Source of the DNA: Candidatus Gastranaerophilales bacterium
Lineage (GTDB): Bacteria; Cyanobacteriota; Vampirovibrionia; Gastranaerophilales; Gastranaerophilaceae
Assembly: GCA_944323875.1 (NCBI GenBank)
Contig: CALUUH010000001.1
Coordinates: forward strand, 62,001 to 126,000
Direction of reading: 5' to 3'
DNA length: 64,000 nucleotides
In this document: positions 19,045 through 31,739 of the stretch, in pieces
Layout: every line of letters starts with the position of its first letter
Position numbering within the stretch: position 1 is the stretch's first letter
Translations under genes and position numbers: made by a program
The notes under the pieces: model-generated
Told to the model about the DNA's origin: nothing
The model's database searches: none
The model's input: only the letters and a program-made list of their open reading frames with translations

Positions 19045-19079
19045 TAAAAAGTCCCCTTTATTCAAGAGGACTCTTTTTA
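19045..19079 (-). terminator. Terminator after the 19095 gene
   Basis: On the minus strand AGTCCTC pairs with GGGGACT, followed by TTTTATTATA. It separates the FTG gene from the XRE/zinc-ribbon gene. Confidence 0.6.
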
Positions 19080-19094
19080 TATTTATTCTCGTAT

Positions 19095-20012
19095 TTATTT
19101 TTCAGGGTTTGCTAATACCATTTTTGCTTCTGACCAAGCGTATGAATCTTCATATCCGCTGTCAGTAAACAGATTCTCATAGAAACTGATACCTTCATCA
19201 GTACTTCTTTCAAGATATCCGATCGGTGTCAGGTTAAGATTTTCATCATATTCGGAAATCAAGTTTTCACCGTTTTGCATGTTTGTTGAACATACTTTTG
19301 CAACTTCCTGCCATTCAATCGGGCTGCTCGGTTTCACACCTACAACAGGTGCTTTGGAAATTTCTCCGGCAACACCTCTGCCATAATCAACAGAATATTC
19401 AACACGATTGTATTTTACCTGCGGGTTGTTTGGATCTTCAGAATAATCTTGTGCTCTATCAATAAACACCATTTTTTCTTCTGATGATGCTTTACCGTCG
19501 AACACTAAATCGTGTGCTGTTGAATTCCACTGATCAAATGCAGTGATACGAACAGGAATATTACCTTCACCTTCAAATTCAAAACCTAAATTTTCACCGT
19601 GCGCTTTAAGGGAATCTGCAACTTCTGATTTATAGTTAGGTTTCAAATAAGTTGTATCTCCAGGTAATACAACGATAATAGAATCTCTAACGGTATCACC
19701 CGGTATTGGTTTTTCTATAACTATTGTATCCGGATCAACAGGACATGGTCGTAAATTTACATTTACTTCAGTATCTGATTCGTGATTAAAAACAAAATCA
19801 GGGTCATCATCACAGCTAACTGCCATTGAGCTTGCGCCTAACGCTGCCAGCATACCTAATGCCAAATTTCTCATTGCACGTGCACCGTCTTTTGAGATTA
19901 CAACATTTTGTTGCGGTAAGTTTTGTTGAGGCTTTTTAAGAGGTAAATTGTTTTCCGGTTTTGATACCGGTCTGTTACCTGTAAAGTTTACGCCGTTTAA
20001 TTTTTCAATCAT
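19095..20012 (-). CDS. FTG-motif lipoprotein-like envelope protein
   Basis: A 305-residue protein, paralogous to its neighbour at 20209. The N-terminus MIEKLNGVNFTGNRP is followed by a Pro/Gln/Lys-rich linker, VISKDGARAMRN, and only then a signal-like hydrophobic stretch (LALGMLAALGASSMAVSC) with a lipobox-type Cys before DDDPDF. So about 50 residues precede an apparent lipoprotein signal peptide. A PGDT proline-rich stalk follows, then a C-terminal domain with ITAFDQWNS, DLVFDGKASS and DSYAWSEAKM. Good AGGTCT-type binding site before the ATG. Probably surface or periplasmic; function unknown. Confidence 0.75.
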   Translation of the reverse strand: MIEKLNGVNFTGNRPVSKPENNLPLKKPQQNLPQQNVVISKDGARAMRNLALGMLAALGASSMAVSCDDDPDFVFNHESDTEVNVNLRPCPVDPDTIVIEKPIPGDTVRDSIIVVLPGDTTYLKPNYKSEVADSLKAHGENLGFEFEGEGNIPVRITAFDQWNSTAHDLVFDGKASSEEKMVFIDRAQDYSEDPNNPQVKYNRVEYSVDYGRGVAGEISKAPVVGVKPSSPIEWQEVAKVCSTNMQNGENLISEYDENLNLTPIGYLERSTDEGISFYENLFTDSGYEDSYAWSEAKMVLANPEK

Positions 20013-20138
20013 TTTATTTTAGACCTCCAATTGTGTGTATGAGCTTTTAAAATTCTAAAATTTATAAATTTGCTAGTTGCCGGAACTAAATTATAACACA
20101 AATGCAAAAAACCTTGTAGTAATAAGCTTTTGCAGCAA

Positions 20139-20182
20139 AAGTCGCCTTTACAAAAATTAATATATTTTCATAAAGGCGACTT
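20139..20182 (-). terminator. Terminator after the 20209 gene
   Basis: A perfect 12-bp stem (AAGTCGCCTTTA / TAAAGGCGACTT) followed on the minus strand by TTTTGC. The gap 20013-20208 holds nothing else. Confidence 0.7.
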
Positions 20183-20208
20183 GTTTCGGCTATATTTCGT
20201 GTAGAAAA

Positions 20209-21252
20209 TTATTTTTCAGGGTTGCTTCTGTACATTTTAGCTTCAGACCATGCGTAAGAGTCAGTGTAACCGCTCGGGCTGATTAAGTTTTCGTAGAAGC
20301 TTACTTCTGAATCACCTTTTTCAAATGAACCGGTATTTACAAGATTGCCGTTTTCATCATATACAGAACGTTGAATAAATCCGTTACGCAGGTTAGTCAA
20401 ACAAACCTTTCCTGTAGGAATCCAGTCATTTTTACTTGAAGGTTTAGAGCCTGGATAACGTGAGTCAAAGTATTCAAATGTAACACCTTTGCCGTAATCA
20501 ACGGAGAATTCAGCTTTGCTGTAGTTTAATGTAGGATTTTTAGAATCTTTTGAGTAATCCAGTTTTCTGTCTGTGAATACCATTGTTTCGTAAGAAGATG
20601 CTTTGCCGTCAAATACTAAGTCGTGGTCAACAGAATTCCATTGATCAAATGCGTGGATACGGGTAGGGATTTTGCCGTCACCGTCCATATCAAGCCCTAA
20701 GTTATGACCGTGCTGAATAAGTGAATCGGCCACTTCTGATTCATAATCAGGTTTTACATAAACAATTTCACCAGGAATTTCTACTTTTATGGTATCGCGG
20801 ATAGTATCACCAGGTAAATAAATCGGAACTTTCTGAATTATTGTGTCAGTTTTGTAAATAGTATCCCCCGGCAGATAGACTGGTTTCTCTTTATAAATTG
20901 TATCGGTTTTGTAGATAGTATCTGTAACATATTTTGGTACTTCTACGATGAATGTATCAGGATCTTGCGGGATAGGGTGATAATCCACATTTACAACCAA
21001 ACTGTCTTTGTGATTAAATTCCATATCCGGAGCAAAATCATCATCACAACTTGTTAAGGTCGGAGCCGCAATTGTTGTTCCTAATGCAGCAAGAATACCC
21101 ATTGCATAGTTTCGTAACGCTCTTGCGCCATCTTTAGAAACAACCACAACTTGTTCCGGCTGCTGTGATTTATTTTCTTTTTCAGGTTTTTGAGCAGGCA
21201 AATTTTTACCTGTTTTACCTGTAAATTGTACACCATTTAATTTGTCGATCAT
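20209..21252 (-). CDS. FTG-motif lipoprotein-like protein with PGDT/KTDTIY stalk
   Basis: A 347-residue paralogue of the previous gene. The ATG at 21252 has AGGAGG 7 bp upstream; an upstream in-frame start at 21279 is poorer. MIDKLNGVQFTGKTGK, a polar linker, VVVSKDGARALRN, then a hydrophobic segment ending LTSCDDDF (lipobox-like). The stalk at about residues 105-165 repeats YKTDTIYKEKPVYLPGDTI units. The C-terminal domain matches its paralogue (IHAFDQWNSVDHDLVFDGKA, SVSFYENLISPSGYTDSYAW). SCDDD and KTDTIYK repeats are reminiscent of Bacteroidetes surface lipoproteins, hinting at acquisition or convergence. Confidence 0.78.
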   Translation of the reverse strand: MIDKLNGVQFTGKTGKNLPAQKPEKENKSQQPEQVVVVSKDGARALRNYAMGILAALGTTIAAPTLTSCDDDFAPDMEFNHKDSLVVNVDYHPIPQDPDTFIVEVPKYVTDTIYKTDTIYKEKPVYLPGDTIYKTDTIIQKVPIYLPGDTIRDTIKVEIPGEIVYVKPDYESEVADSLIQHGHNLGLDMDGDGKIPTRIHAFDQWNSVDHDLVFDGKASSYETMVFTDRKLDYSKDSKNPTLNYSKAEFSVDYGKGVTFEYFDSRYPGSKPSSKNDWIPTGKVCLTNLRNGFIQRSVYDENGNLVNTGSFEKGDSEVSFYENLISPSGYTDSYAWSEAKMYRSNPEK

Positions 21253-21536
21253 TGAAAACCTCCTAAATTTTCTACACACATTACACTTTGTATTGCATGT
21301 AAGTTTGCTGATGATTTTAAATTGCCCTAATTTTTAATTAATTAAATAACAAAAATAAAAAAGCTTGATAAATCAGCTTTTTCAGCCATCATTTTTGCTT
21401 AACAAAAATTAACATTTAATTTTAAACATTTTTTTGAATTGGATGCCCTAAAAACACAGCAAAAATCTGCGCTTTTTCATCAAAAACGAAACCGCCGAAA
21501 AGCAAGCGGCACAAGGATTGGGCCAGTTGGCTATCC

Positions 21537-28481: not shown

Positions 28482-29588
28482 TTAATCTTGAGCAAATACT
28501 GCCCCTTTTGTTGTTACACCATAATTATTTGCCAGAGATAATACTGCATACGCGTTATTAAATGCATTACCTTGCTCGGTAAGTGACTGTTTAACAAAAT
28601 CCATAGCCTGAGTTAATGCATTATCAACAATATTATATTTTTTGTTTTTTGCATCAACTAATATTACCTGACCGTAGTTTAGCTGTGTTGCATTATTATA
28701 ATCGCTAAAGAAAGTATCTTTATGATACACAGCCAGACTTACTTTTAACTCAGGATAACCAGCTTTCTGTACGGTTACTACTTCAGCATTATTTTCATTG
28801 CCGTCAGTAGAATAATATCTTATTGTATATTTGCCATTATCACCGTCAAAATCATTACTGCCTATATTCTTACCGTAGCTAGCCTTAGGTGTTGCTGTTT
28901 TCATCGAATTACCGCCGGCATTGTTTTCCAGATAACCGGTTGCAGAAGGACCGACCACACGATTATACTGAACAACTTCCACTGCTCCCGGATACTGTCT
29001 ATTCAGAGTTTCCATATAGGAAGTAACTCTTTTGTCATTAGGAACAATAGGAATAGGCGCCATGCGGCTGTTGAAATCTTTTTGCAGTTCCTTGTCTGTA
29101 TAGGAATGTACATTTTTTATTGTAAATTTCTTACTTGTCCCATCATCAGAACGTAATGAGAAATTATATTTTACTAACTGATTTTTACGGGTTTTGGTTA
29201 TTTTATTGTCATATCCGGTATAAAGAAACTGTACATTTTTCTTATTATTCTGTTGAACTAACTGAATTTCCAGATTTTTTGAGGCTCTTACTTTTCCAAA
29301 TGTTTTTGATGCCAACACCCTGCCGGATTGCTGTGCTTCATCAATTTCATCAATTTCATTAACTTCCGGTGCATCAACCAATTCAATAGTATTTGCTTCC
29401 GGTTCAATGCGATAATTTGATGCCGCATCACTTGACAACGGACTCATTGCAATTAGAACAGCCAGCGGGACAGCTTTAACCATTGGTGTTGTATGCGGCT
29501 GTGGTGTGTTTTTTTCCTTTTTCTTTCCTTCAAATTGAATTACATTTGTTTGATTTGGCATTATTTGTGATATTGGTCTGATTGCCAT
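28482..29588 (-). CDS. FxGK-motif envelope protein (third gene of operon)
   Basis: A 368-residue protein. The N-terminus MAIRPISQI...NVIQFEGKKKEK carries an F-x-G-K motif, then a polar linker and a signal-like segment AVPLAVLIAMSPLSSDAAS around residues 39-57. The body holds VRASKNLEIQLVQQN, YNFSLRSDDGTSKKF, GDNGKYTIRYYSTDGNE and VQKAGYPELKVSL, all matched in the two upstream paralogues. Probably exported; function unknown. It is last of three genes spaced 17-19 bp apart. Confidence 0.75.
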   Translation of the reverse strand: MAIRPISQIMPNQTNVIQFEGKKKEKNTPQPHTTPMVKAVPLAVLIAMSPLSSDAASNYRIEPEANTIELVDAPEVNEIDEIDEAQQSGRVLASKTFGKVRASKNLEIQLVQQNNKKNVQFLYTGYDNKITKTRKNQLVKYNFSLRSDDGTSKKFTIKNVHSYTDKELQKDFNSRMAPIPIVPNDKRVTSYMETLNRQYPGAVEVVQYNRVVGPSATGYLENNAGGNSMKTATPKASYGKNIGSNDFDGDNGKYTIRYYSTDGNENNAEVVTVQKAGYPELKVSLAVYHKDTFFSDYNNATQLNYGQVILVDAKNKKYNIVDNALTQAMDFVKQSLTEQGNAFNNAYAVLSLANNYGVTTKGAVFAQD

Positions 29589-29605
29589 AATTCATTCTCC
29601 TGTTT

Positions 29606-30688
29606 TTATTTTTTATCATCAATATAAATGTTTTCGGTACTTGCAGAAATTTTATAATCCTTTGCTACTTCCGCTTTATCAAACGGAACATTATTTTTGT
29701 TATACAAGGCGCTTTTTGCGACTTTTTCCATATATTCGCCTAGTGTTTTGTCATAAATTATTGTAGTTACACCATCATTGTCTTTCAGGTTAAACTGATA
29801 TGTTTCAAAACTTACCGGCTCCATATTGTTTGTCGCAAAGCTGGATTTCACTTTAATCATTTTGTCAATTTTTAATTCCGGATAGCCTTCTTTTTTCAGC
29901 GTAAATTCTTCTGCTGTAAGAGTTTGCTTGTCAGAATTGTAAATTGAAATATCATAAATTCCGTTGTCGCCCTCAAGGATTTTGTGCCCCATAAATTCAC
30001 CTTCCGGTACGTATTGATGAGCATCTTTCCATAAATTTCCGTCCTCATAAGAGATTACCACACGGCCGGACGGCAGAGGAACAAGATTTTCATTATGATT
30101 TACAACTTCTATAGCGCCGTTGTTTTCCGGCGATTGCGCCAATTTGTCAAAATATTCCAGAAATTCATCATTTGCGATTAATACTTTCTGGGTATCGACA
30201 ATATCCTGCGCTTTTACACCTTTTACCGTAAAAAATCCATTGTTTGCCTCATCATCAGCTAATGGTGCAAAATTATATTTTGATATTTCTTCTGCTTCAT
30301 AACGGCTGCCTATAGAATTCGGGGTTGCCTGAGAGATTAAAATACTTTCAAAATTTGTACTGTCATTATCTAAATCTTTTGTTCTGACTATGTAGTTTTC
30401 ACCATTTACATTAAAAAATGTTTTTACGGCAAGCGTTTTACCGGCCAAACGATTTTGCGGGCTGTTATTGTCTACAACAACTTTTTCAGGCTGCGCCGGT
30501 AGAGGCAGTTTGTCCTGTGCTGTAACTGTATTTGGAGCAAGCGGACTCATTGCAATGAATGTTGCTAAAGGAATTTTTACATACATTGGAGTTGATGATT
30601 TTGCTCCTTCCGGCTTTTTGTCCGGTTTTCCTGCAAAACCTGTCTGATTAGTATTTATATGAATGTTATTTATTGACTTTATATTCAT
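29606..30688 (-). CDS. FxGK-motif envelope protein (second gene of operon)
   Basis: A 360-residue paralogue of its neighbours. N-terminus MNIKSINNIHINTNQTGFAG then KPDKKPEG linker and the signal-like KIPLATFIAMSPLAPNTVTA. The body has ISKYNFAPLADDEANNGFFT, EGDNGIYDISIYNSDKQT and LKKEGYPELKIDK at the same places as the other two. The repeated 'DNG-Y-I-x-x-Y-S/N' and 'GYPELK' elements define a family restricted, as far as I can tell, to this organism group. Confidence 0.75.
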   Translation of the reverse strand: MNIKSINNIHINTNQTGFAGKPDKKPEGAKSSTPMYVKIPLATFIAMSPLAPNTVTAQDKLPLPAQPEKVVVDNNSPQNRLAGKTLAVKTFFNVNGENYIVRTKDLDNDSTNFESILISQATPNSIGSRYEAEEISKYNFAPLADDEANNGFFTVKGVKAQDIVDTQKVLIANDEFLEYFDKLAQSPENNGAIEVVNHNENLVPLPSGRVVISYEDGNLWKDAHQYVPEGEFMGHKILEGDNGIYDISIYNSDKQTLTAEEFTLKKEGYPELKIDKMIKVKSSFATNNMEPVSFETYQFNLKDNDGVTTIIYDKTLGEYMEKVAKSALYNKNNVPFDKAEVAKDYKISASTENIYIDDKK

Positions 30689-30707
30689 TTATTTTCTCCA
30701 AACAGCC

Positions 30708-31739
30708 TTACTCTACATCATAAATATTGCCTTTGTGATCTACAATCTGGGTTTCTTCAACATCTTCCAGTTTAAAAGCCTTATTAGCAGGGTCATTTGT
30801 CAACTCTTTCAAATCAGCAAATAATGCATCATTAAAAATTCTGGCGGTCTCAGTACCTTTGTTTTTCAACAAAGTTATCTGGTTGTAACTAAAATCTCCA
30901 ATTGGCGCGCCTGCATCAATTAATGATGAAGTTACATTTTTCAAATTAGCAACCCTGAATTCAGGTTCACCTGCACGCTTTATTGTAACTACTTCATAAT
31001 CCTTTTTGTTTCTGTCAGTAGTGTACGCATTGATTGTATAAGTTTCACCGTCTACCTGTCTTGTCCAGCCTGCAACAGGGTGTCCGAAAGAGCCTTCCGG
31101 CTTAACTTTTGTCCAGCCTGTATTTTGAGAATTAACATTTTCAAGTCCGTATCTTCCGGCTTTCACAGTTTTGGTTATATTTTTGGTTTTGATGCCTGTT
31201 TTGTTCTCATCAGAAAGCAGGAATTTAGCAAGCTGAGCAGAAATATTAGGTTCAGTATAACCGTAAACACTATTTGCATCATCTGTAGCTTGAACTGTCA
31301 ATTGCGGAAATTTAAAGGTTTTGGCTTCAACGCCGTCATCTCCGACGAGTTTTAAGGTAACATTTTTATATTCTGTAATTCTTTTACCGTCTAAATCACC
31401 GTCATTTATATATATATCATTTACTTTATTAGAAGCTTCTTTGTTATTTACATAATATAATTTTCTTACAATGCCGTCATTACCGCGATATCTTTCCGTT
31501 TTTAAAAGATTGGTATTCTCCGGAAGCTTGTCTTTCATTGTGCTTTCAAGGATTACAGTATTCACATCCGGTATATTTGCAGTTCCGACTGTTGTCATCG
31601 GACTCATTGCAATCAATGTCGCAAGCGGTACTGCCATACCGAGTCTTGTAGTTGATTTTGTACTGTCTGTATTATTTTTGTTTTTGCCTGTAAACTGCAA
31701 CGTTGTAAAAGATATGTTGTTAATAGGGCTAATATTCAT
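30708..31739 (-). CDS. FxGK-motif envelope protein (first gene of operon)
   Basis: A 343-residue first gene of the operon (AGGAGAATT before the ATG). N-terminus MNISPINNISFTTLQFTGKN, polar linker, then AVPLATLIAMSPMTTVGTA as a delayed signal-like helix. The body shows YKNVTLKLVGDDGVEAKTFK, VDGETYTINAYTTDRNKKD and IKRAGEPEFRVANL, aligned with its paralogues. Same N-terminal logic as the lipobox proteins at 19095-21252 though the mature domains differ. Confidence 0.75.
   Translation of the reverse strand: MNISPINNISFTTLQFTGKNKNNTDSTKSTTRLGMAVPLATLIAMSPMTTVGTANIPDVNTVILESTMKDKLPENTNLLKTERYRGNDGIVRKLYYVNNKEASNKVNDIYINDGDLDGKRITEYKNVTLKLVGDDGVEAKTFKFPQLTVQATDDANSVYGYTEPNISAQLAKFLLSDENKTGIKTKNITKTVKAGRYGLENVNSQNTGWTKVKPEGSFGHPVAGWTRQVDGETYTINAYTTDRNKKDYEVVTIKRAGEPEFRVANLKNVTSSLIDAGAPIGDFSYNQITLLKNKGTETARIFNDALFADLKELTNDPANKAFKLEDVEETQIVDHKGNIYDVE

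Follow-up and report, generated by a model that had tools for sequence, protein, structure and literature searches.

Two paralogous genes, P1 and P2, lie on the minus strand of the window, the 64,000-nucleotide stretch of DNA analysed here, in the genome of a Candidatus Gastranaerophilales bacterium (Melainabacteria; 1.94 Mb in 49 contigs); every relative that carries a name falls in the same order. The features assigned to the pair, each with its basis in parentheses, are as follows.

19095..20012, minus strand: P1, predicted stalked lipoprotein paralogue 1, 305 aa, starting MIEKLNGVNFTG (open reading frame with ribosome binding site; P1/P2 orthologue pair kept in four same-genus genomes)
20209..21252, minus strand: P2, predicted stalked lipoprotein paralogue 2, 347 aa, starting MIDKLNGVQFTG (open reading frame with ribosome binding site; pairing with P1 conserved)
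19974..20012, minus strand: P1 tag, residues 1–13, MIEKLNGVNFTGN, with FTG at 19977-19985 (pN/pS and invariant residues)
21214..21252, minus strand: P2 tag, residues 1–13, MIDKLNGVQFTGK, with FTG at 21217-21225 (pN/pS)
20023..20028, minus strand: Shine-Dalgarno GGAGGT of P1, 10 nt before the ATG (sequence)
21259..21264, minus strand: Shine-Dalgarno AGGAGG of P2, 6 nt before the ATG (sequence)
19812..19895, minus strand: predicted lipoprotein signal peptide of P1, S40 to Cys67, with SKDGARAMRN n-region, h-region and AVSC lipobox (sequence, S-C conservation, Lgt and LspA encoded)
21046..21138, minus strand: predicted lipoprotein signal peptide of P2, S39 to Cys69, with SKDGARALRN n-region, h-region and LTSC lipobox (as for P1, plus a model helix at 40–61)
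20755..21045, minus strand: polar PGDTI/KTDTIYK stalk of P2 (alignment; low-confidence and unstructured in the model)
19644..19811, minus strand: short PGDT stalk of P1 (alignment)
20209..20754, minus strand: C-terminal beta-rich domain of P2, residues 167–347 (eight strands within 198–311 plus flanking helices in the model)
19095..19643, minus strand: C-terminal domain of P1, a homologue of the P2 domain (58% identical to P2 residues 146–347)
19046..19076, minus strand: intrinsic-terminator-like hairpin after P1 (such sites are no commoner than in shuffled sequence)

Both proteins open with MI(E/D)KLNGV(N/Q)FTG, and an ordinary lipoprotein signal peptide appears only at residues 39–69. From the N-terminus, the layout is the tag (residues 1–13), about 25 polar residues, SKDGARA(M/L)RN, a hydrophobic core, (AV/LT)SC, an acidic and PGDT-repeat stalk, and the C-terminal domain. 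The n-regions are basic and of the KALRN type, and the S-C of the lipobox is the same in 10 of 10 aligned P1/P2 proteins and is retained in distant homologues. The genome encodes both Lgt (G000:C3:92932-93666) and LspA (G000:C22:10631-11002). Judged from the signal peptide, the lipobox and these two host enzymes, P1 and P2 are predicted to be lipoproteins. Of four genomes representing other families of the order, three (G036, G037 and G038) gave no Lgt (PF01790) match, although LspA was mostly found; loss, divergence or incompleteness are possible reasons. The original prediction had the coordinates, the shared opening, SKDGARA, the hydrophobic segment and SCDDD right in both genes, and its description of a KTDTIYK/PGDTI stalk holds in part, with PGDT repeats in both proteins and KTDTIYK in P2 only. 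The number of PGDTIY/KTDTIY repeats in the P2 stalk differs among orthologues (347- versus 384-aa proteins; L034:6001-7155), while the P1 stalk stays short.

The placement of the signal peptide is exceptional for this genome. In a survey of 44% of the genome, sampled in stretches, the Cys falls at residues 19–24 in nearly all clear lipoproteins, and P1 and P2 were the only real late-Cys lipoproteins in that sample. Since the lipoprotein Cys typically lies at about 19–24, the extension of P1 and P2 is not the house style of the host genome, and the original prediction was right to call an extension before the signal peptide unusual.

We compared pN/pS by protein segment across five same-genus genomes. 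In P2, pN/pS was 0.06 for the tag, 0.34 for the linker, 0.23 for the stalk and 0.21 for the C domain; the corresponding values for P1 were 0.22, 0.58, 0.20 and 0.17. The tag (0.45–0.56) matches the other segments in synonymous divergence, so the constraint acts on the amino acids, and a DNA or RNA element in place of a protein motif is ruled out. Constraint on the tag is comparable to or stronger than that on the mature domain while the linker drifts, which identifies the extension as real protein. Across the five genomes, M1, I2, K4, N6, V8, F10 and G12 are invariant in both paralogues (10 sequences). Some P1 orthologues carry two or three residues inserted ahead of the Phe (MIGKVNNVKVTNFAGN) and retain F-x-G.

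The tail is not confined to P1 and P2, a restriction that the original prediction had named as evidence against itself. The same kind of two-part tail occurs on three tandem genes at 28482-31739, 7 kb from P1/P2, that encode a family unrelated to P1/P2 and without the Cys, named MSP after its AMSP core.

28482..29588, minus strand: MSP family protein 1, tail MAIRPISQIMPNQTNVIQFEGKKK, h-region without Cys (motif and alignment)
29606..30688, minus strand: MSP family protein 2, tail MNIKSINNIHINTNQTGFAGKPDK (motif and alignment)
30708..31739, minus strand: MSP family protein 3, tail MNISPINNISFTTLQFTGKNKN (motif and alignment; tag is the best-scoring match to P2)

When P2 was compared with one MSP protein by BLASTP, the tag was the best-scoring piece and no further similarity was found. 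The tag Phe is among 14 invariant columns in an alignment of eight MSP proteins that share 20–30% identity, and F.G is present in 6 of 10 MSP members against 0.5 in shuffled sequences (P < 0.0005, for homologues that are not independent by descent). A search for known domains in the MSP proteins found none. The apparent export signal of the three tandem paralogues is an unusually conserved hydrophobic segment, AVPLATLIAMSPM.

A comparable pattern was found in lipoprotein homologues beyond the genus, which come from eight other genomes and share 27–37% identity. Their linkers are unalignable; most have a short M-x-[IV]-x-x-[IV] start, many have F-x-G (for example MQVNAVNNFSNINSTSFQGRKK, MRINSINAYNSTPLNFQGKDKK, MQVNAIQSSLGFTGRF and MEIKAINALSFNGTNN), and all finish in S-C after a hydrophobic core. 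The exceptions are two homologues with FES and one in which the motif is absent. Of the 13 divergent extensions, 8 contain F.G, where shuffled sequences give 1.6 (P < 0.0005, again with homologues not independent by descent). The analysis shows that the tag is translated, kept by amino-acid selection and common to two unrelated exported families.

To describe a wider class of F-x-G tails, we propose an M-x-[IV]-x-x-[IV] prefix, a short polar linker and [hydrophobic]-x-F-x-G, an arrangement that P1 and P2 both have. A position model trained on the P1/P2 and MSP families (threshold 8 bits or more, the five window proteins excluded) matched 12 other sampled proteins in the same genome versus 1.15 in shuffled sequences (∼10-fold), and, among sampled genes, 9 versus 1.45 in the same family and 4 versus 1.65 elsewhere in the order; the other families in the class showed no excess (1 versus 0.6). 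The proteome-wide power of the model comes mostly from the M-x-I prefix, and the association between prefix and F-block has p = 0.02. Cruder proteome-wide tests were weak. Plain F.G[KNR] counts across the samples gave no convincing enrichment outside this genome, an unbiased homologue-pair test was not significant (17 F.G pairs versus 10.4±4.2 shuffled), and the enrichment among proteins with a late hydrophobic segment has p = 0.0003 with the five window proteins and 0.27 without them. Given these results, and gene calls made by a simple script, we hold the wider spread of the motif across the proteome lightly.

The model's matches include proteins without export signals, among them soluble ones such as a HicA-domain protein (L038:5662-6006; Pfam match) and a 1403-aa protein that 52 of the 60 family genomes contain. 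Similar tails are also found on small domain proteins (L179:17310, L183:15026) and on membrane proteins (L054:15941). A conserved two-gene cassette of membrane proteins (L171:11825-13539, L060:7819-9284, L099:6314-7782, L079:3420-4624) has members that are otherwise unrelated in sequence and mostly carry F-x-G tails. The window also contains, at 98-1363, a member of a separate family opening MGMAASQAR-(F/Y)-L-x-L-TARKTN-EYEGQQ, which occurs in several copies (also L182:8009-9775 and L111:10621-11655), has no Pfam match and is possibly an axial or secreted component.

Taken as a whole, the tail is probably a previously undescribed address tag, recognised inside the cell and lost by cleavage on export. 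The reading we favour, with a probability of about 0.45, is that a complete, ordinary lipoprotein signal peptide is preceded here by an accessory N-terminal tag of ∼13 residues that serves in targeting or docking. Starts with good ribosome binding sites and the predicted disorder of the tail in the structural model count in its favour; tails on proteins without export signals count against it, as a purely Sec-linked role leaves them unexplained. In this mechanism, the tag would stay in the cytoplasm on its flexible polar linker during or just after synthesis, where a putative host factor (a chaperone, a translocase partner or a positional cue) would read M-x-[IV]-x-x-[IV]...F-x-G-[KNR]. Sec would then take up the normal signal peptide, Lgt would lipidate the Cys, and LspA, by analogy with lipoprotein biology in general, would remove the tag and signal peptide together by cutting before the Cys. 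The mature product would be a lipid-anchored protein whose small beta-rich head sits on an extended PGDT stalk. Signal peptidase II is expected to cut behind the tag, so the tag would act only before or during export and on the cytoplasmic side; being cleaved with the signal, it would affect the precursor (its targeting, timing, chaperoning, or place or efficiency of export) and not the later location of the mature protein. The sorting or timing tag of the original prediction is supported in part: the extension is translated, conserved and recurrent on other proteins, but since it should leave together with the signal peptide, it could bear on targeting or timing before cleavage and not on sorting of the mature protein. 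With its 13 residues and two anchor positions open to testing, the tag offers a concrete handle for a receptor search.

The tails on soluble proteins could be accounted for by a broader cytoplasmic tag, that is, a general Gastranaerophilales interaction or localisation peptide that is not tied to Sec and occurs on soluble and membrane proteins as well as exported ones, its place ahead of these signal peptides being one of many uses. The HicA-domain, 1403-aa, small domain and membrane proteins all speak for such a tag, which we regard as unlikely but worth serious weight: the wider set was picked by a short motif with modest statistical support, and some of its members may have arisen by chance or mark the edge of a domain, where F.G immediately precedes a strand. 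Distinctly unlikely is a more ambitious version, in which one two-part tag, M-x-[IV]-x-x-[IV]...F-x-G, would mark lipoproteins, Sec-exported, membrane and soluble proteins of Gastranaerophilales, perhaps of much of Vampirovibrionia, and be read by a dedicated cytoplasmic receptor, with a possible link to a flagellin-independent flagellar-type export apparatus.

The extension might alternatively be an inherited 5′ module of little function, in which a duplicated start region (promoter, ribosome binding site and first codons) has spread between genes and Sec simply tolerates a long n-region. The tandem arrangement of the paralogues and the freely evolving linker would fit this account. We judge it improbable, because amino-acid constraint on the P2 tag exceeds that on the mature domain, with synonymous sites in the tag free to vary, and because the motif persists both with shifted spacing and in deep homologues.

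The tail could instead be a type III secretion-type signal, serving a second flagellar-type export apparatus that works independently of flagellin. Among Gastranaerophilales genomes, an FlhA-like protein was found in 39 of 39, an FliF-like protein in 38 of 39 and flagellin in 21, and the host genome itself encodes the FlhA-like and FliF-like proteins. The tails are I/N/S-rich and disordered, and their hydrophobic element at the N-terminus, with a Phe motif behind it, loosely recalls the dual signal that early flagellar subunits carry (PMC8983047). In that dual signal, however, at least 19 residues separate the two elements (PMC8983047), whereas the Phe of these tails is at residue 10–22 (residue 10 in both P1 and P2), with a polar T or R at +4. 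The lipoprotein signal peptide with its lipobox moreover indicates Sec export, and f14 has the apparatus, yet tails were not seen there in a small sample. We consider a type III signal very improbable. With respect to the apparatus itself, the FlhA-like (about 703 aa) and FliF-like genes lie ∼3 kb apart outside the window (G000:C19:23283-28498); about half of the Gastranaerophilales examined lack flagellin, among them this genome and its genus. The set appears to make up a second flagellar-type export apparatus that is conserved and does not depend on flagellin. A separate protein of ∼500 aa whose match to FlhA is limited to the C-terminal half (PF00771; G000:C25:17279-18298) occurs beside the full-length copy in most genomes of the family (f1) that were searched.

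For the mature domain, a Bacteroidetes origin is not supported. In the AlphaFold model of P2, the first 39 residues are disordered, a helix spans 40–61, the stalk is disordered and the head is beta-rich (pLDDT about 50–81 in the head, low elsewhere). Fold searches returned nothing significant; the sub-threshold matches included VtrA/VtrC and GID4, both small beta-barrels, so a barrel-like binding head is a guess. Pfam, NCBIfam, PHROG and PDB yielded no relative, and all relatives detected in whole genomes and GTDB contigs belong to Gastranaerophilaceae. The original prediction had proposed that a Bacteroidetes surface lipoprotein domain was captured behind a native N-terminus. As in the Bacteroidetes export signal, which is K-(D/E)2 after the Cys (PMC5080379), acidic residues directly follow the presumptively lipidated Cys of P1 and P2; that signal sits in the mature protein, however, whereas the P1/P2 tag is a pre-signal tail. 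The CDDD of the window proteins matches neither K-(D/E)2 nor Q-A-(D/E)2, differs from the Capnocytophaga consensus and is not conserved, with orthologues having CSKED, CEKG or CDDGE, of which only CSKED would fit. With relatives confined to one family, none in plasmids, phages or IMG/VR, and a normal GC content (z = −0.02), the proposed transfer is hardly credible and we reject it; the homology search suggested as a check found no relatives of the mature domain outside Gastranaerophilaceae. Least credible, and likewise rejected, is a mis-annotated start just before the hydrophobic segment, for which internal Met codons exist (P1 M47, P2 M51): no ribosome binding site precedes P1 M47, strong ones precede M1, and codon-level purifying selection extends over the tag, so that this weakness foreseen by the original prediction did not materialise.

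An accessory tag ahead of a signal peptide has few counterparts. Conserved tags in front of signal peptides are, to our knowledge, rare, and those known indicate additional levels of export control; the export biology of the non-photosynthetic gut relatives of cyanobacteria is almost unstudied; a literature search found no description of a Melainabacteria N-terminal motif. In arrangement the tag appears analogous to the ESPR and YSIRK extensions, and since motif, host and cargo differ it would be a member of neither. ESPR is the extended signal peptide region of autotransporters and two-partner secretion proteins, which gives autotransporters their long signals. It has n and h parts of its own and belongs to large type V proteins, whereas the P1/P2 extension is polar and disordered with F-x-G, and searches of Pfam, NCBIfam and PHROG found no beta-barrel translocator, autotransporter or two-partner secretion domain in P1 or P2. 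Early flagellar type III signals share with the tag a hydrophobic extreme N-terminus and a downstream Phe-containing motif, but the spacing in the tag is too short, its motif is different and a Sec/lipoprotein signal follows it. The YSIRK-GxxS motif is absent from the P1 and P2 sequences. YSIRK/GXXS is a conserved signal-peptide motif of Gram-positive surface proteins that is lost on processing and directs the site of secretion to the septum (PMC5962339), and to that extent it resembles the role suggested here for the tag, as a conserved motif that is lost with processing and may direct where the precursor is secreted. YSIRK/GXXS, however, serves cell-wall-anchored proteins of Gram-positive bacteria, whereas P1 and P2 present a different motif on a ∼40-residue disordered tail ahead of the complete signal peptide of what are predicted to be diderm lipoproteins.
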